This document shows, in pieces, positions 7,774 to 55,763 of a DNA stretch of 64,000 nt. The stretch is from Klebsiella planticola ATCC 33531 (GTDB lineage: Bacteria > Pseudomonadota > Gammaproteobacteria > Enterobacterales > Enterobacteriaceae). The DNA lies in contig NZ_JMPP01000057.1 of the NCBI RefSeq assembly GCF_000735435.1, positions 1-64,000 of the forward strand. The letters are read 5' to 3'. The notes below the pieces were generated by a model. The model did no database searches and was not told the DNA's origin. It was given only the letters and a program-made list of their open reading frames with translations. Positions within the stretch are counted from its first letter, which is position 1, and each line of letters starts with the position of its first letter. A program made the translations under genes and the position numbers.

Positions 7774-8040
7774 ATGGCATCAGGTTGGGCAAATGATGGC
7801 GCAGTTCAGGATCAGATCGACAGCACCGTTGACGATGCGGTCGCACGGGCGAGAAACGCCCTCCCCAGCGGAGAGAGCCACAAATTTTGTGATGAATGCG
7901 GAGAGCCGATTCCCGAGGCCCGAAGAAAGGCGATCCCGGGGGTCAGATACTGCGTGAAGTGCCAACAGGAGAAAGATTTACATAACAATACATTTTCAGG
8001 ATATAATCGCCGTGGCTCCAAGGACAGCCAGCTACGCTGA
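7774..8040 (+). CDS. ybiI: YbiI, DksA/TraR-type C4 zinc-finger protein
   Basis: An 88-residue cytoplasmic protein matching E. coli YbiI from MASGWAND to the terminal GYNRRGSKDSQLR. It carries the C4 zinc finger FCDEC...YCVKC (around residues 38-62), flanked by GEPIPEARRKAIPGVRYC, the DksA/TraR signature. Relatives bind RNA polymerase in the secondary channel; YbiI itself has no firmly assigned role. The start is fixed by GAGGAGGT 6-12 bases upstream. An in-frame ATG at 7744 overlaps the ERIC end and is rejected. Confidence 0.92.
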   Translation: MASGWANDGAVQDQIDSTVDDAVARARNALPSGESHKFCDECGEPIPEARRKAIPGVRYCVKCQQEKDLHNNTFSGYNRRGSKDSQLR

Positions 8041-8325
8041 CCTTCCTTTACCGTTCATTACCACAGAAAGCATTATCTTTTCGCGCACGTTTTTCGGCCA
8101 AAAAAGTGGCAAAATGTGCCCTGAATACGTTCTGTACCCCGCTGGGGTCTCTCCGGCCATCCCACCACGAAATAATTTATTAATATTCAATAAATTAATA
8201 ATCATTCAAAAAAATCGATGAAGACTGTTAATTTCCTTCGATTTTATCTCTCGCAAAAAAGCGTGATACTTATCACATCGACGGAACATCGTCCTCTTAA
8301 CAAAATAACCTGCGAGAGATTAACT

Positions 8326-8586
8326 ATGAAAACCATTAAATATGCTGCCGCTGCTATTGCCCTTACTACTCTGTCCTTTGGCGCTTTCGCCGCTCAGCCG
8401 GTTAGCCCGTCTCAGGCTGAAAGCATGAACAAAATTGGCGTGGTCTCTGCTGAAGGCGCAACGACTCTGGATGGTCTGGAAGCCAAACTGGCTGAAAAAG
8501 CGCAAGCCGCTGGTGCGACTGGTTACAGCATCACCTCCGCCAACACCAACAACAAAATTAGCGGTACCGCGGTTATCTATAAATAA
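8326..8586 (+). CDS. ybiJ: YbiJ, DUF1471 small periplasmic protein
   Basis: An 86-residue secreted protein with a signal peptide (cleavage near AFA, residue 22). The DUF1471/YhcN core is NKIGVVSAEGATTLDGLEAK, and it ends SGTAVIYK, like E. coli YbiJ. The start at 8326 has GAGAG upstream; an in-frame ATG at 8218 would add 36 residues that break the signal peptide. The 285 bp upstream (8041-8325) are AT-rich with no gene. It is monocistronic, with a strong terminator after it. Confidence 0.9.
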   Translation: MKTIKYAAAAIALTTLSFGAFAAQPVSPSQAESMNKIGVVSAEGATTLDGLEAKLAEKAQAAGATGYSITSANTNNKISGTAVIYK

Positions 8587-8637
8587 CCGCTGCACGACCT
8601 GTATTAACCCTGAACGACCCTTTAATACCCTTGTTTT

Positions 8638-8672
8638 GCCCGTCCGTGCCACCGGACGGGCTTTTTTTTTTT
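8638..8672 (+). terminator. Rho-independent terminator of ybiJ
   Basis: GCCCGTCCG and CGGACGGGC form a perfect 9-bp stem around a 6-base loop, followed by about 12 T residues. It ends ybiJ transcription before the convergent ybiB. Confidence 0.92.
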
Positions 8673-8717
8673 ATACGTCACTGTCTGACGTGAGCTTTTT
8701 TCAGGGGAAACGGGTGG

Positions 8718-50418: not shown

Positions 50419-50675
50419 CCTCTCTTTTCCCCCTCTTTTCCTTAGCGCCGTGCTCTTTCGCGACTTTCTCTTCTGCTTTTTTCCTCCGCTGCGCCCCCTC
50501 AATTGATCGCTACCGCAGCCGCTTCTCTTGCGCGTGCAAAAAATAGCGTTTTCTGGCGAATAAATATCTGCGCTGATGCGTTTACTCTCTGTAACAACAC
50601 AACGGCCTTCCGGCACGCTTCCCCGCGAAAGGGATACCGCCGGGTTACCCGCATCGTTGCCCCTGGAGACGAAAA
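50419..50675. other. Leader region before the redox/ECF cluster
   Basis: No gene is seen. The first part (to about 50500) is a T/C-rich tract, and an AT-rich stretch around 50540-50570 may hold the promoter. GGAGACG lies just before the ATG at 50676. I could not identify a -35/-10 pair shared with the candidate ECF promoter at 52668. Confidence 0.4.
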
Positions 50676-51227
50676 ATGAACACTCTTATCTCATCGATTG
50701 TGCCGGCTTCACGCCGCTTAATGGTTCCGGCACTGCTATGTTTGTTATATGCATCGCCGTCATTCGCCATGGGCGATAACAGCACCCAGAGCAAAACGCC
50801 GGACTGCCCCAGCGGACAGGTGTATGACAGCGTCAGCAAACGGTGCGTCCCGGATAAAACCAGCAGTCTTAGCGACCAGGATAAAACCAACTACGCCTAT
50901 CATCTGGCGAAAAAAGGGGAATATCAGGCGGCACTGAACCTGCTGGATTCGCTGAAAAACGGTAATACCGCCGAAGCCTGGAACTATCGCGGCTATGCCA
51001 CCCGTAAGCTCGGACGTACGGATGAAGGGATTGGCTATTATCAGCGCGCGCTGGCGCTTGAGCCCAACTACGCCAAAGCGCGTGAGTATCTTGGCGAAGC
51101 GTGGATGGTAAAAGGCCGCCGGGATTTGGCGCAGGAACAGCTCAAAGTGATTTCCGGGATTTGCGGTCAAAGCTGCGAGGAGTATCGCGATTTGCAGGCC
51201 GCCATTAACGGACATCCGGAATCCTGA
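50676..51227 (+). CDS. Periplasmic TPR-repeat protein
   Basis: A 183-residue secreted protein with no assigned name. A signal peptide covers about residues 1-31 (cleavage near SFA). A short Cys pair follows (PDCPSGQVYDSVSKRC), and two TPR units at about 70-138 carry AWNYRGYATRKLGRTDEGIG and YYQRALALEPNYAKAREYLG. A second Cys pair (GICGQSC) lies at the end of a third helix pair, so two disulfides are likely. It is the first gene of the run leading into the ECF sigma factor, 22 bp upstream of the latter's start, and may sense or scaffold an envelope redox signal (inference). Confidence 0.8.
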   Translation: MNTLISSIVPASRRLMVPALLCLLYASPSFAMGDNSTQSKTPDCPSGQVYDSVSKRCVPDKTSSLSDQDKTNYAYHLAKKGEYQAALNLLDSLKNGNTAEAWNYRGYATRKLGRTDEGIGYYQRALALEPNYAKAREYLGEAWMVKGRRDLAQEQLKVISGICGQSCEEYRDLQAAINGHPES

Positions 51228-51249
51228 AGCTCATCGCGAGGGTAAAAAA

Positions 51250-51765
51250 ATTACTACCAGCGACGTTCGCTCACAGCTTGCCGCACATCTGGCCCGTCTT
51301 TGGCGCTACGGGCTAATTCTGTCGCACAATCGCGATATTGCCGAAGAGCTGGTTCAGTCAACCTGTGTTCGCGCGCTCGAACGGAGCGCGCAGTTTACGC
51401 CGGGCACCCGTATCGACCGGTGGCTGTTCACTATTCTCCACTCCATCTGGATTTCCGAGCTGCGGGCGCGTCACGTCCGAAGGGGGCAAGGCTTCGTCGA
51501 AAACGACCCGCAGCTCGCCACAGACGATCGCGAGCTGAATGAGGATCATCGCCAGTATCAGCAACTTATGCGTCAGGTCAGCGCCCTGCCGGAAGCCCAG
51601 CGCAACGCGGTGTTTTTAGTGTATGTTGAAGGTTTTACCTATCAAGAGGCGGCAGACACGCTATCGGTCCCCATCGGTACGGTGATGAGCCGGCTGGCGG
51701 CGGCGCGATCGACGCTGGCAAAAGCCCCCGCTACCGCCGCTGCAGCCAGGGAGAAACGCTTGTGA
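51250..51765 (+). CDS. ECF-type sigma factor with an apparent AUU start
   Basis: A 171-residue sigma-70 family, extracytoplasmic-function regulator. Region 2 contains NRDIAEELVQSTCVRALERS (about 31-50) and DRWLFTILHSIW. Region 4 contains LPEAQRNAVFLVYVEGFTYQ and then IGTVMSRLAAARSTL. No ATG, GTG or TTG exists in this frame from the preceding stop at 51148 until codon 51568, which would delete region 2. The codon at 51250 is ATT, 7 bases after a good ribosome site GAGGG, and the protein from there has normal ECF length. The stop overlaps the GTG start of the anti-sigma gene. An ATG-to-ATT sequencing error is the alternative. Confidence 0.82.
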   Translation: MTTSDVRSQLAAHLARLWRYGLILSHNRDIAEELVQSTCVRALERSAQFTPGTRIDRWLFTILHSIWISELRARHVRRGQGFVENDPQLATDDRELNEDHRQYQQLMRQVSALPEAQRNAVFLVYVEGFTYQEAADTLSVPIGTVMSRLAAARSTLAKAPATAAAAREKRL

Positions 51766-52565
51766 AATCATCCTTTTTTACTCCCCCCTATGGCGATGAG
51801 GCCATTATTGCCTGGCTGGATGGCGAAATGAGCGCTCCCGACGCCCTCCGCTTTGAAGCCGCCTTCAGAGAGGATCGGCAGCTGGCCGCACGCACCGCCG
51901 AACTGAAGAGCATCGCGCAGAATTATCAGCAGGCGTTTGCCCCGCTGCTGGAGCAGGCTCCCGTCGCGCGCATGCGGAGCCGGCTTGATGCCCATCTGGC
52001 AGCAATGCCCGCGCCGAAGAGCTCTGCACCTCTCCCGGCCTTTAGTCGCCGCGCCATGATTGCCGCCTCGCTCACTTTTTTACTCATCGGCAGCGGCTTA
52101 GGCTATCTGGCCCGTCCCGATGCCGGTGAACCTGATGAGAGCGAAAACATTCGCGATCTTGAAGCCCGTTACATGTCGCTCTACAGCGCGGAAACCCTGC
52201 TCGATATGGACAGTTCACCGGCGATATTACAGCGCGGCCTGGCGCGTACCGCCGAGGATATCGGTTTAGCGCTCAAGCCGCAGCAGCTCGCGCTACCGGG
52301 CGCCGAGCTAAAAATGGTGCGTATTCTGCGCTATGAGCGCACCACCATTGCGCAGATCGCCTGGATTCACGCGGCGTATGGGCCGATGGCGCTGTGCATC
52401 TCTCCGGACAGCCCGCAAAACGATACCAGGATAGCCGCGGAACGGCGACACGGCATGAATCTCGCCTGGTGGCGCGCTAACGGGTATCAGTTTGTGCTGA
52501 TTGGTCGCAATCCTGGCGCGCAATTGCACGATAACGCCCGCCAGTTGCAGGACTTACTGTCATAG
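51762..52565 (+). CDS. Membrane anti-sigma factor partnered with the 51250 ECF sigma
   Basis: A 267-residue single-pass membrane protein starting with GTG inside the sigma stop. An N-terminal cytoplasmic helical domain (YGDEAIIAWLDGEMSAPDAL, about 10-90) resembles anti-sigma domains of the RskA/FecR type. One membrane segment (about 98-116, RAMIAASLTFLLIGSGLGYL) leads to a periplasmic domain ending near 267. The N-domain has no cysteines, so it is not a zinc-binding (ZAS) anti-sigma. Coupled translation with the sigma gene supports the pairing. Confidence 0.82.
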   Translation: MKSSFFTPPYGDEAIIAWLDGEMSAPDALRFEAAFREDRQLAARTAELKSIAQNYQQAFAPLLEQAPVARMRSRLDAHLAAMPAPKSSAPLPAFSRRAMIAASLTFLLIGSGLGYLARPDAGEPDESENIRDLEARYMSLYSAETLLDMDSSPAILQRGLARTAEDIGLALKPQQLALPGAELKMVRILRYERTTIAQIAWIHAAYGPMALCISPDSPQNDTRIAAERRHGMNLAWWRANGYQFVLIGRNPGAQLHDNARQLQDLLS

Positions 52566-52667
52566 CCAACGTCGCCGTTCGGGGCGATGACCAGCGATCG
52601 CGGGCGATGTTTCGCTGAGAATTGCCGCCGGCCATCGCATCCGGCCGCTAAATATTTTTCACCCGGC

Positions 52668-52693
52668 GAAACTTTCTTTCTCACTCCGGCGAA
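52668..52693 (+). promoter_or_regulatory. Candidate ECF-type promoter before the peroxiredoxin
   Basis: GAAACT and CGAA are separated by 16 bases in the 180-bp gap upstream of the peroxiredoxin. This resembles the GTAACC-N16-CGAA pattern of Caulobacter SigF (ECF with NrsF anti-sigma), as I recall it. The CCGGCGAA word is present twice (52663 and 52686). Evidence is by pattern only. Confidence 0.4.
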
Positions 52694-52745
52694 CTGTATA
52701 GCAGAGTCACCTGACCAGAACGCCCTGACATCGCTGGAGCTAATA

Positions 52746-53318
52746 ATGAAACTGATGAAAAACCTTGCTCGTTCTTTGACCCTGACCGTCGCGCTTGGCC
52801 TGTCCGCCACCGCGTTTAACGCCGGCGCGGCGCTGCCCGTCGGCGCGAAAGCCCCTGCTTTCGAACTGCAGGGCGCCTTAGCCGGTAAACCGATCGCCTT
52901 CTCCCTGCAGCAGGCTTTGCAAAAGGGGCCGGTGGTGCTCTATTTCTTCCCGGCGGCATTTACCGCTGGCTGCACCATTGAGGCCCACGACTTCGCCGAA
53001 GCCAGCGATGAATTTAACAAAATGGGTGCCACCGTCATCGGCGTCACCGCCGGTAACACCGATCAGGTTAGCGATTTCTCTAAACTGGAGTGCCGCGATA
53101 AGTTCGCCGTCGCCGCGGATCCGGGGGCCAAAGTGGCCGCGCAGTATCAAACGCTGATGGAGATGAAGGGCAAGACCGTTTCCGACCGGACTTCATTTGT
53201 CATTGCGCCGGACAACACGATTCTGCTCAGCTACACCGATCGAAATCCGGATGCCCATATTGAGAAAACCCTGGCCGCCGTCAAGCAGTACGACGCCGCC
53301 CACCCGCAAACCCACTAA
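52746..53318 (+). CDS. Periplasmic peroxiredoxin (AhpC/TSA-BCP family)
   Basis: A 190-residue thiol peroxidase with a signal peptide (residues 1-28 or so, cleavage near AGA), which is unusual since most peroxiredoxins are cytoplasmic. The peroxidatic cysteine is C76 in FPAAFTAGCTIEAHDF. C116 in KLECRDKF is the candidate resolving residue. The start at 52746 has GGAG 7 bases upstream; an earlier in-frame ATG lacks a signal peptide. It is 15 bp upstream of a DsbD-like gene that could reduce it across the membrane. Confidence 0.88.
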   Translation: MKLMKNLARSLTLTVALGLSATAFNAGAALPVGAKAPAFELQGALAGKPIAFSLQQALQKGPVVLYFFPAAFTAGCTIEAHDFAEASDEFNKMGATVIGVTAGNTDQVSDFSKLECRDKFAVAADPGAKVAAQYQTLMEMKGKTVSDRTSFVIAPDNTILLSYTDRNPDAHIEKTLAAVKQYDAAHPQTH

Positions 53319-53333
53319 ACAAAGAGGCCAGCG

Positions 53334-54572
53334 ATGCTCACCGCCATGCTGGCCGCCTTTATTGGCGGCATCATACTCAACTTTATGCCCTGCGTTTTTC
53401 CGGTTATCTCCCTGAAAGCGCTCGGGCTTCTGCGCCATACGGATAACGCCGTGGGCGCTCGTCGCGAAGGGCTGGCTTTTTTACTTGGTGTGATGGTCAC
53501 CATGATGCTGCTGGCCGCCGTTCTGCTGGCCGCCCGCGCCGGCGGCGTCGCTGTCGGCTGGGGATTCCAGCTGCAATCGCCGCTGGTGATTGCCCTGCTT
53601 TCGCTGGTGATGCTCGCCGCCGCGCTGAACCTGCTGGGGGTGTTTGAGGTCGGGCTATCGGCGCAGCGCGTCGGCGCTCTGGATATTGGTCGCGGCGCCT
53701 TTGTACGCTCGGCGATGACCGGGGCGCTGGCGATCGTCGTTGCAACCCCGTGCGCGGCGCCGTTTATGGCCAGTGCGATTGGCTATGCGCTGGTGCAGCC
53801 GCCGGCCACCGCGCTGGCCGTGTTTTTTGCCCTCGCGCTCGGTTTTTCCGCGCCATTCACCCTCGTTTCGCTGTTTCCGGCGCTGGCTTCTCTCCTCCCC
53901 CGTCCTGGCAGGTGGATGGATATGCTTAAACGTGCGCTGGCCTTTCCGATGTTCGGCGCTTACGCCTGGCTGGTATGGGTACTGGCGCAGCAGGCCGGTA
54001 GCAGCGCGCTGGCGACGCTACTGGCGGTCTCGGTGGTGCTGGGCTTTGCTGCCTGGCTCTATGGTATAGCCCAGCAGCGCCGCTTTCAGGGCAAAGGGCA
54101 CAGGAGCCTGTTCGCCGTCACCGGGGTGCTCGCCGTCGCGGTTATTGCTCCGCTGGCCGGTCTGATTCAGGCCGATTCCGTGCCGCCCGGCGCACAGACT
54201 GTCGCGACCGCCGGGAGCGCTGCGGAAAAATGGACACCGCAGGCCGTCGAGGCGCAGCGCGGCCACGGCAAAGCGATCTTTGTTAACTTCACCGCCTCCT
54301 GGTGTATCACTTGCCAGGTTAACGAAAAGACATCGCTTTCAACCCAGGCCGTAAAAGACGCGCTGGCAAAAACCGGGACGCTGTATATGGTGGCAGACTC
54401 GACTAAATTTAATCCGGATGTCGATGATGCGCTGAATCAGTTTGGCCAGGGCGGTCTGCCGCTGTACGTGGTCTATCCTGCCGATGGCGGGCCGCCAAAA
54501 GTACTGCCGCAGCTCCTGACGCCGGGCATCGTCGTGAACGCGCTGAACCAGGCCACCGGCAAAAAAGCATAA
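53334..54572 (+). CDS. DsbD-like thiol reductant transporter lacking the alpha domain
   Basis: A 412-residue membrane protein with the DsbD beta (CcdA-like) domain and C-terminal thioredoxin-fold gamma domain, but no N-terminal periplasmic alpha domain. The redox cysteines are C20 (NFMPCVFPV) and C140 (VATPCAAPF) in the membrane domain, with eight hydrophobic segments to about 280. The WCITC motif (323-327) of the gamma domain is periplasmic. Electrons from cytoplasmic thioredoxin would pass beta to gamma and then directly to a partner, most simply the adjacent peroxiredoxin (inference). Confidence 0.86.
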   Translation: MLTAMLAAFIGGIILNFMPCVFPVISLKALGLLRHTDNAVGARREGLAFLLGVMVTMMLLAAVLLAARAGGVAVGWGFQLQSPLVIALLSLVMLAAALNLLGVFEVGLSAQRVGALDIGRGAFVRSAMTGALAIVVATPCAAPFMASAIGYALVQPPATALAVFFALALGFSAPFTLVSLFPALASLLPRPGRWMDMLKRALAFPMFGAYAWLVWVLAQQAGSSALATLLAVSVVLGFAAWLYGIAQQRRFQGKGHRSLFAVTGVLAVAVIAPLAGLIQADSVPPGAQTVATAGSAAEKWTPQAVEAQRGHGKAIFVNFTASWCITCQVNEKTSLSTQAVKDALAKTGTLYMVADSTKFNPDVDDALNQFGQGGLPLYVVYPADGGPPKVLPQLLTPGIVVNALNQATGKKA

Positions 54573-54589
54573 ACGCAACAAGGCGGATT

Positions 54590-55147
54590 ATGGAAATAAA
54601 CGATAGCGCGCGCGAAAGCTGGCCCGCGCTAATGGCGCAGGCGCAGGCGGGCGATCGGCTCGCCTACACCCGGCTGTTAAAAGCGCTGGTCCCGGTCATT
54701 CGTTCGCAGATACGTAAGCGAATCGCCGACGACGCGTTAGTCGAAGATGTCATTCAGGATGTGCTGCTGACGGTGCATCGGGTACGCCATACCTACGATC
54801 CGACCTACCCTTTTTTGCCCTGGCTGATGGCGATTATCTCGGCGCGGGCCGTTGATGCGTTGCGCCGTCGCGGTCGCTATCAGCAGTGGGAGATCCCCGA
54901 AGAGACGTTGCCGGAAGCGGCAACGTTAGCGGATCCGCAAAAACGGGATAGCCGGGAGGAGCTGGCAGGCTATTTGCGCCAGCTCCCCTCCCGCCAACGA
55001 GCCATTGTGGAGCATGTCCATCTACGCGAAATGAGCCTGACGGAAGCCGCTGCACATAATAATCTGAGTGTCGCCGCAGTGAAATCGCTGCTGCATCGGG
55101 CGCTGAAAAACCTGCGCCGTTTTGGAGCTCATCATGACGAATCATGA
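54590..55147 (+). CDS. Second ECF-type sigma factor
   Basis: A 185-residue ECF sigma factor. Region 2 has ALVEDVIQDVLLTVHRVRHT (about 48-67) and PFLPWLMAIISARAVDALRR; region 4 has LPSRQRAIVEHVHLREMSLT and AAVKSLLHRALKNLRRF. It starts 17 bp after the DsbD-like gene, probably in the same transcript, and overlaps the NrsF-like gene by 14 bp. It resembles the SigF group paired with NrsF anti-sigmas. It shares only general family features with the first sigma (51250). Confidence 0.88.
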   Translation: MEINDSARESWPALMAQAQAGDRLAYTRLLKALVPVIRSQIRKRIADDALVEDVIQDVLLTVHRVRHTYDPTYPFLPWLMAIISARAVDALRRRGRYQQWEIPEETLPEAATLADPQKRDSREELAGYLRQLPSRQRAIVEHVHLREMSLTEAAAHNNLSVAAVKSLLHRALKNLRRFGAHHDES

Positions 55148-55763
55148 CCTGTTAATAGACAAGCTGGGGCGCGACATGCGGCCGGTGAAACGCCTGCCAT
55201 CGACCGGCAGGCGGGTTCTGAGCTGGCTGGCAGCGGCTCTGCCGTGCGCGGCGGCCGCCAGTTTCCTTGTGCAACGCAGCCCGACCGACTGGTCACAGCC
55301 TGGCGCCTCTCTGGCGGTGGTGCAGCTGCTGCTGGCTTTTGTGCTCGGCGCGCTGGCGATTCGTAGCGCCTTCACGATGAGTATTGCCGGTCGGCGTTCT
55401 CTCAGCTGGAAAGCCCTGCTGCCGATTGGCCTGATGTGGCTGGGGCTGAGTATCAGCAGCATTCCCTATCCGGCGCTGCGGGTGCCGGAGAGCGACAGCA
55501 CGCCCTGCTTTACCTTTTTGCTGGTGGTCAGCACGCCAATGATGGTACTGATGATTGCCAGCCTGCGCCGCACCCGAACGCTGCATCCGGTGCGCAGCTT
55601 GGGGATGGCAGGACTGGGCATTGCCAGCATGGCGGTCAGTCTGCTGGCGTTTTGCCATCCGGTACATCTGCACGCGATAGATTTTGTCATGCATCTGGCG
55701 GCGATAGTCACGATCGTGGCGCTGACGGTGTTGGTTGGCAGACGCTGGGTGGCGCTGGATTAA
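55134..55763 (+). CDS. NrsF-like (DUF1109) six-helix membrane anti-sigma factor
   Basis: A 209-residue inner-membrane protein with six hydrophobic segments (about 24-43, 60-78, 87-104, 119-138, 152-170, 180-200). The short cytoplasmic N-terminus DLLIDKLGRDMRPVKRLPS is typical of DUF1109/NrsF. Periplasmic-side cysteines fall in DSTPCFTFL and AFCHPVHLHA; family members use conserved cysteines in signal response (from memory). The ATG at 55134 lies within the sigma gene end, so the pair is coupled. It would hold the 54590 sigma inactive until oxidative or heavy-metal stress. Confidence 0.85.
   Translation: MTNHDLLIDKLGRDMRPVKRLPSTGRRVLSWLAAALPCAAAASFLVQRSPTDWSQPGASLAVVQLLLAFVLGALAIRSAFTMSIAGRRSLSWKALLPIGLMWLGLSISSIPYPALRVPESDSTPCFTFLLVVSTPMMVLMIASLRRTRTLHPVRSLGMAGLGIASMAVSLLAFCHPVHLHAIDFVMHLAAIVTIVALTVLVGRRWVALD

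Follow-up and report, generated by a model that had tools for sequence, protein, structure and literature searches.

Two adjacent extracytoplasmic function sigma factor modules in Klebsiella planticola, one with a sigma gene that appears to start at a conserved isoleucine codon

Results

The locus and its genes

We analysed a 64,000 nucleotide stretch of the Klebsiella planticola ATCC 33531 genome (contig NZ_JMPP01000057.1, positions 1 to 64,000 of the forward strand, hereafter the window), in which a run of seven genes in one orientation (50676-55763) lies between ybhC and pgl and includes two extracytoplasmic function (ECF) sigma factors, each overlapping the gene of a membrane anti-sigma factor. 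An earlier sequence-only reading had described these genes as a single redox cluster. All seven genes were found, however the single unit was not borne out, and by sequence comparison the locus is instead two separable ECF modules lying side by side, module A (tetratricopeptide repeat (TPR) protein, sigA and antiA) and module B (prx, dsbD, sigB and nrsF). Translation of sigA appears to start at an isoleucine (Ile) codon that its relatives share.

A Pfam search of the window proteins agreed with the gene identities proposed earlier, returning TPR, sigma-70 regions 2 and 4 twice, AhpC-TSA, DsbD_TM with Thioredoxin_7, and NrsF, and both sigma/anti-sigma overlaps were confirmed, with the antiA GTG lying over the sigA stop (51762-51765) and the nrsF ATG (55134) lying within sigB, which ends at 55147. 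The cluster had also been called lineage-specific, in keeping with which we obtained 0 megablast matches in 20,395 E. coli records. The genes said to occupy this interval in E. coli K-12 were indeed found between ybhC and pgl in the order ybhJ-ybhI-ybhH-ybhD, the record being one E. coli and not K-12. The features of the locus are as follows.

50557..50583, + strand: predicted module A promoter, CGAATA-N17-GTTT, putative SigA target (1 match in the window against 0.08 expected)
50676..51227, + strand: exported TPR protein with invariant C44, C57, C163 and C167 (Pfam TPR families; cysteines in 57/57 aligned rows)
51238..51242, + strand: putative Shine-Dalgarno (SD) sequence of sigA, GAGGG (an SD-like 4-mer or 5-mer precedes the Ile codon clade-wide, consensus gaGGa/GGAGG)
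51250..51252, + strand: apparent non-canonical sigA start, ATT (frame without a canonical start; codons of the clade; shift in synonymous fraction)
51250..51765, + strand: sigA, ECF sigma factor of module A (Sigma70_r2, Sigma70_r4_2)
51762..52565, + strand: antiA, membrane anti-sigma factor with GTG start (cytoplasmic helical part, one transmembrane segment, periplasmic RseB/MucB-C-like domain, invariant C212)
52666..52694, + strand: predicted module B promoter, GAAACT-N16-CGAA, putative SigB target (sole exact match to the strict form in its own genome)
52746..53318, + strand: prx, exported PrxQ-like peroxiredoxin with C76 and C116 (AhpC-TSA, 84.8 bits; both cysteines in 17/17 rows)
53334..54572, + strand: dsbD-like electron transporter, transmembrane domain and C-terminal thioredoxin domain with CITC (DsbD_TM, Thioredoxin_7)
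54590..55147, + strand: sigB, ECF sigma factor of module B with ATG start (Sigma70_r2/r4; PRK12512 at 137.7 bits, under its cut-off of 198)
55134..55763, + strand: nrsF, predicted membrane anti-sigma factor of SigB with invariant C125 and C174 (PF06532 above cut-off)

An isoleucine start codon in sigA

The first gene pair was originally read as an ECF sigma factor with a single-pass anti-sigma factor, and both are present, however that reading passed over the missing ATG, GTG or TTG start of sigA. In the window the sigA frame holds none of these codons from the upstream in-frame stop as far as codon 107, and translation appears to start not at ATG but at the Ile codon ATT at 51250, behind the SD sequence. 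The two best-matching solved ECF sigma factors align with SigA from residues 15 and 5 onward.

Relatives of sigA were drawn from named genomes (the best 80 of 574), a few plasmid records, Enterobacterales (match in 15/394 genomes), Rhizobiales (match in 59/397 genomes; 30 loci used, 30 of 60 matches), the Pseudomonas family (match in 11/248 genomes) and Rhodobacterales (match in 35/244 genomes; 30 loci used, 30 of 36 matches). Starts were called by a single rule for all rows, in which the Ile label needed an SD-like 4-mer or 5-mer, and a tree of 124 sigmas was made with the start codon column excluded. On this tree the 57 Ile-start rows fall into a single group with no other label inside it (Shimodaira-Hasegawa-like approximate likelihood ratio test (SH-aLRT) 93; one change, with 0/500 shuffles as low), comprising Klebsiella, other Enterobacteriaceae, Pantoea, Cronobacter, Ewingella, Pseudomonas, Rhizobium and Phyllobacterium. 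The codon at the site in the 57 rows, the window included, is ATC in 47, ATT in 8 and ATA in 2, with ATG, a single base away, in 0. The sister sigmas start with ATG, and each of the nearest 26 rows (mainly Rhizobiales) has an ATG within codons -22 to -12 of the anchor.

Left out of the 57 were rows under both 46% identity and 130 bits, duplicate loci (L001, L003-L009, L018, L135, L165, L172 and L176) and two loci with damaged sigA genes, L067 and L119, both with ATT at the site. In L067 (Pseudomonas sp. T1-3-2 plasmid p1) sigA is apparently frameshifted, matching in three tblastn pieces, and the TPR and antiA matches remain. L119 (genome G012, 8014-8710), from a further genome of the same genus, is a decayed module A in which the TPR gene is kept, sigA has an internal TGA and there is no antiA match; the module A promoter motif was not found upstream of it. 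Six loci outside the 57 (L210-L215) have ATC at the site in 6/6 cases.

In order to locate the coding signal we compared the share of single-base codon differences that are synonymous in codons -12 to -4 with that in codons +1 to +14. This fraction was 0.14 upstream versus 0.63 downstream of the Ile codon in Enterobacterales (27 distinct sequences), 0.16 versus 0.71 in Pseudomonas (15) and 0.30 versus 0.59 in Rhizobiales (11), and by this measure purifying selection on the SigA protein begins at the Ile codon. An in-frame stop lies at most 12 codons upstream in 27/57 rows, 20 of these 27 having no canonical start in between.

Among ten annotated plasmid records of the clade nine put the sigA start elsewhere, Cronobacter L206 alone having the conserved ATC; the misplaced starts are a GTG or ATG 21-34 codons downstream (5), a later ATC (2), a CTG (1) and an upstream TTG (1). 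These annotations would suit a SigA that really starts at a canonical codon further inside, with the Ile codon as a conserved residue or part of a leader, however we consider this highly improbable. The next ATG, GTG or TTG in the window is codon 107, and over the 57 rows the distance from the Ile codon to the first canonical codon downstream ranges from 9 to 106 codons, its commonest value (22) accounting for 14 rows. The annotated starts vary even within one species (L211 and L214), and both the onset of purifying selection and the alignment of the solved ECF sigma factors speak for the Ile codon.

In Rhizobiales the frame is open upstream, with leaders of 41-122 codons in 12 rows, 10 of which carry an ATG at codon -34 or -35, and Streptomyces SigR, according to passages of PMC5472188, has in addition a long unstable isoform. 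A longer isoform from an upstream ATG could on these grounds be the main SigA product in Rhizobiales and some Pseudomonas, the SD-Ile start being accessory or internal. We think this distinctly unlikely given the rise in synonymous fraction in the 11 Rhizobiales rows compared above, and it cannot hold for many Enterobacterales, where 15/27 distinct sequences have an in-frame stop no more than 12 codons upstream.

The window TPR stop is only 22 bases from the ATT, which raises the question of whether an Ile start is merely tolerated through termination and reinitiation from TPR to sigA and has nothing to do with initiation factor 3 (IF3) or stoichiometry. This is quite improbable: in Rhizobium and in Phyllobacterium the end of the TPR match lies roughly 160-190 bases upstream, the preceding gene in Cronobacter (L206) is cytochrome b561, and mere tolerance would not exclude ATG, one base change off, from all 57 rows. 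A frameshift from TPR into sigA was considered separately, a TCC-TGA end recurring in Klebsiella, and can be dismissed wherever a stop divides the two genes. The TPR stop of L115 is immediately followed by another in the frame of sigA, the ATC of L035 and that of L206 have a stop two codons ahead of them, and the TPR gene of Rhizobiales is a long way upstream.

Several observations weigh against initiation at the Ile codon. RNA structure at three starts was not beyond chance (z 0.12, -0.53 and 0.48), in only 25/57 rows is the stretch from the in-frame stop (or from 100 codons upstream) to the Ile codon free of ATG, GTG and TTG, and 9/57 have one of these within codons -22 to -12 of the anchor; in Rhizobiales, as described, the open frame would permit a longer isoform. 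The loci of relatives were capped at the numbers given above, and the tree was a quick one whose SH-aLRT of 93 falls short of the 95 that serves as its star threshold. Conservation of the SD among the 57 rows is partly built into their label, and since the SD belongs to the labelling rule it is the codon and the clade that count as independent facts.

A second branch of the sigma family, in Rhodobacterales, may use ATT or ATC starts too. Here (L052-L054 and L178-L192) an SD with ATT or ATC was seen in 14/21 rows, 4 have GTG, TTG or ATG and 3 are unclear; the site column holds GTG and TTG in two relatives. The synonymous fractions are 0.46 versus 0.48, and because the test fails to separate the two sides these rows were not counted.

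The anti-sigma gene starts conventionally. Its start overlaps the sigA stop in 56/57 loci with ATG in 39, GTG in 10 and TTG in 7, and an SD-like 4-mer is likewise present in 56/57, that of the window being AGGGAGA at 51748-51754.

Promoters of the two modules

The motif CGAATA-N-GTT(T/C) precedes the first gene of module A, which is TPR, or cytochrome b561 where that leads, with one spacing in 42/45 sites. Upstream of sigA the strict form occurs in 39/57 loci and the relaxed form in 54/57; first-order Markov resamples average 0.07 and 0.9, and the reverse strand of the same stretches gives 5 and 8. Across its own genome the motif gives 4 matches and a backward control 6, which leaves the module A operon as the only target that can be named; no match was found in the 3.5 kb infC locus. 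In the ATG-start relatives (L143-L164 and L193-L205) the motif often stands in reverse orientation only a few bases from the sigA ATG, with TATTC in 45 of the 71 rows listed; so placed it reads away from sigA towards a divergent gene, which is TPR in L040 and cytochrome c in L208.

Module B carries a different motif, GNAACY-N15/16-CGAA, upstream of prx in 13/14 loci, the window hexamer GAAACT being two bases off the GTAACC hexamer of the SigF/NrsF promoter. Within the genome the exact match before prx is accompanied by three more at one mismatch, versus 3 for the backward motif. As the two conserved promoter types differ, SigA and SigB appear to differ in promoter specificity.

Distribution of the modules across genomes

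Comparison of the interval within the genus, as the sequence-only reading had proposed, gave a mixed picture. We found sigA (E 1e-30 or better) in 8/20 genomes, and the seven genes do recur, being complete in 4 of these 8 (the window, L112, L113 and L115), however module A stands alone within 16 kb in as many (L114, L116, L117 and L118). In Enterobacterales sigA occurs in 15/394 genomes and dsbD, at 63% identity or more, in 9/388. The two lists share 6 genomes (G000, G005, G129, G269, G298 and G364), and of these the window genome alone has A next to B. The distance between the modules is ~0.93 Mb in G005, 0.47 Mb in G364 and 22 kb in G269, and G129 and G298 carry them on separate contigs. A Pantoea plasmid has the modules about 28 kb apart, and another has module B without module A in the 12.6 kb examined. 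L217-L222 and L224 share the gene order prx-dsbD-sigB-nrsF, the dsbD of L221 having one internal stop, and L223 (G129) has prx and dsbD with no sigB or nrsF within the stretch examined. One 770 kb record (L207, LR134125.1), 'plasmid 5' of Klebsiella aerogenes, carries hut genes and ybhC and resembles a chromosome piece labelled plasmid.

These data bear on the earlier proposal of a single seven-gene peroxide-defence unit, in which two sigma/anti-sigma pairs with different signals converge on prx and dsbD. Counting against separate modules, A and B share an orientation and co-occur (6/9 sampled Enterobacterales genomes with a close module B dsbD also have module A), and a simple scan found no intrinsic terminator between antiA and prx (52566-52745), so read-through from A into B is possible in this genome. 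We nevertheless judge the single unit unlikely, since the modules were seen adjacent in only 4 genomes and are apart elsewhere, and since the conserved promoters that precede A and B are of different types. Because the modules separate in other genomes and have these promoters, the data do not support a wired unit in which two signals feed one peroxide output.

Anti-sigma factors and redox proteins

The prediction of a single-pass anti-sigma factor stood, with one transmembrane segment at about residues 98-117 of antiA by hydropathy. Its C212, beyond this segment and the only cysteine in the window protein, is kept in 77/77 aligned rows. The ZAS motif marks soluble zinc-thiol anti-sigma factors; antiA falls outside this SigR/RsrA type of family, and zf-HC2 was found on the window protein below its cut-off only. 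A structure model was made of antiA, the only protein folded (mean predicted local distance difference test (pLDDT) 87.9, predicted template modelling score (pTM) 0.59), and in comparisons of its periplasmic part with known structures RseB/MucB chains made up the majority of the highest Foldseek rows and all six of the best VIA rows. The best match has Z 9.2 over 93 residues with a root-mean-square deviation of 2.8. Weighing against this assignment, the likeness is structural only (Z 8.1-9.2 at 9-14% identity, a best Z of 7-8 being typical without a clear match), and among 25 members no Pfam match to the RseB/MucB C-terminal domain was found. As a lead from the model, the periplasmic domain of antiA resembles the RseB/MucB C-terminal domain. 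In RseA/RseB and MucA/MucB the matched structures are separate periplasmic proteins, whereas antiA would be one protein and not two.

TPR sequence is present in 55/57 module A loci. Other neighbours of module A are cytochrome b561 in at least 12/57 loci, YceI in at least 10/57 and a Blc-like lipocalin in at least 2, these counts being lower bounds as many loci cover only about 1.5 kb of flank. In two Pantoea plasmids (L120 and L121) module A is followed by YceI and then by the arn lipid A modification operon.

For the second anti-sigma factor the Pfam assignment agreed with an NrsF-like protein (PF06532, 35.1 bits against a cut-off of 26.8), and the six helices claimed for it were seen by simple hydropathy as five separate segments. 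Its C125 and C174 occur in 13/13 rows. Together with the cysteines of antiA and of the TPR protein these uphold the redox and envelope theme first proposed for the locus.

DsbD/ScsB-type electron transporters work with envelope peroxiredoxins, and module B similarly places a membrane electron transporter beside an exported peroxiredoxin. Unlike those systems, the dsbD product adjoins an ECF sigma factor and is only 412 amino acids long without the N-terminal domain, the frames of more distant matches being 655-744 amino acids. Its match to PRK00293 sets in at profile position 171 and reaches 114.2 where the cut-off is 330, and from the three-domain set of full DsbD it has the transmembrane and thioredoxin domains only.

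Discussion

The sequences support the sigA start site and its conservation, the promoter motifs and the separability of the modules, and we think it probable that the locus comprises two autonomous, autoregulated envelope-stress switches lying end to end, with the Ile start of sigA keeping SigA scarce in comparison with antiA. We infer that in module A antiA would hold SigA at the membrane, and that a signal, likely an envelope oxidative one, would act at the periplasmic RseB-like domain with Cys212, perhaps by contact with the cysteine-rich TPR protein, and free SigA to transcribe its own operon from the CGAATA-type promoter. In module B NrsF would serve as a thiol sensor that holds SigB, and SigB would drive prx-dsbD-sigB-nrsF, with a periplasmic peroxidase plus electron supply as the output. 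The AUU of sigA (AUC or AUA in relatives) is an IF3-disfavoured codon behind an SD, antiA having AUG, GUG or UUG with its own SD, and the weak start may keep SigA below antiA and thus prevent spurious firing.

The closest parallel is Streptomyces sigR, which passages of PMC5472188 describe as having a GTC start that is repressed by IF3, with RsrA in excess; changing this start to ATG, GTG or TTG led to overproduction of SigR relative to RsrA and switched on the regulon. Like SigR-RsrA, module A combines an ECF sigma factor that has a conserved non-canonical start and SD with an NTGA overlap, an anti-sigma factor with its own SD and misannotated starts. By analogy, an IF3-disfavoured start most likely keeps sigma below anti-sigma here as it does in SigR. 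The systems differ in that sigR uses GUC or GUU within one genus, whereas sigA uses AUU, AUC or AUA in two classes of Proteobacteria, and in that RsrA is a soluble zinc thiol protein whereas antiA is membrane-bound with its only cysteine beyond the transmembrane segment. We regard sigA as probably an independent proteobacterial case, the second among ECF sigma factors. The codon class is also that of infC, which in this genome has GGAGG and then ATT and in E. coli has a known ATT start (noted in PMC5472188), however infC is a case of IF3 autoregulation. Outside infC an AUU start, also misannotated, is described for Borrelia PncA (PMC13398362). We found no report of a non-canonical start in the literature on this sigma family, most subscription papers being outside the search.

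For module B the likeness is to Caulobacter SigF-NrsF, where passages of PMC3511200 give the promoter sequence GTAACC-N16-CGAA and state that the NrsF cysteine pair matters. Module B shares the GNAACY-N16-CGAA promoter, and the two invariant cysteines of its NrsF are spaced at 49 residues, against 50 in Caulobacter. Its operon includes prx and dsbD, of which those SigF passages make no mention.

The Ile start could also be a second sensor, in which any stress that lowers initiation fidelity, for instance by oxidising IF3 or altering its amount per ribosome, lifts SigA above antiA with no need of a periplasmic signal. We hold this to be doubtful, and a sensing role is speculative because derepression of SigR by oxidative stress could not be shown by its authors (passages of PMC5472188). 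If true, one switch would join envelope sensing to translation status, independently of SigR and in two classes of Proteobacteria.

Only a small number of bacterial genes are known to rely on IF3-disfavoured starts, and the SigR authors, in the same passages, expected ribosome profiling to reveal those that remain. The kind of control proposed here is known from SigR, and what is probably new is an Ile-codon start in a proteobacterial ECF sigma factor. An entire clade of sigma factors, spread over Alpha- and Gammaproteobacteria, keeps AUU, AUC or AUA, with AUG in 0/57 rows, in genera with good genetics, and the N-terminus of the family is misplaced in 9/10 annotated records examined. This suggests a recurrent design rule in which the sigma factor has a weak start and its anti-sigma factor a normal one.

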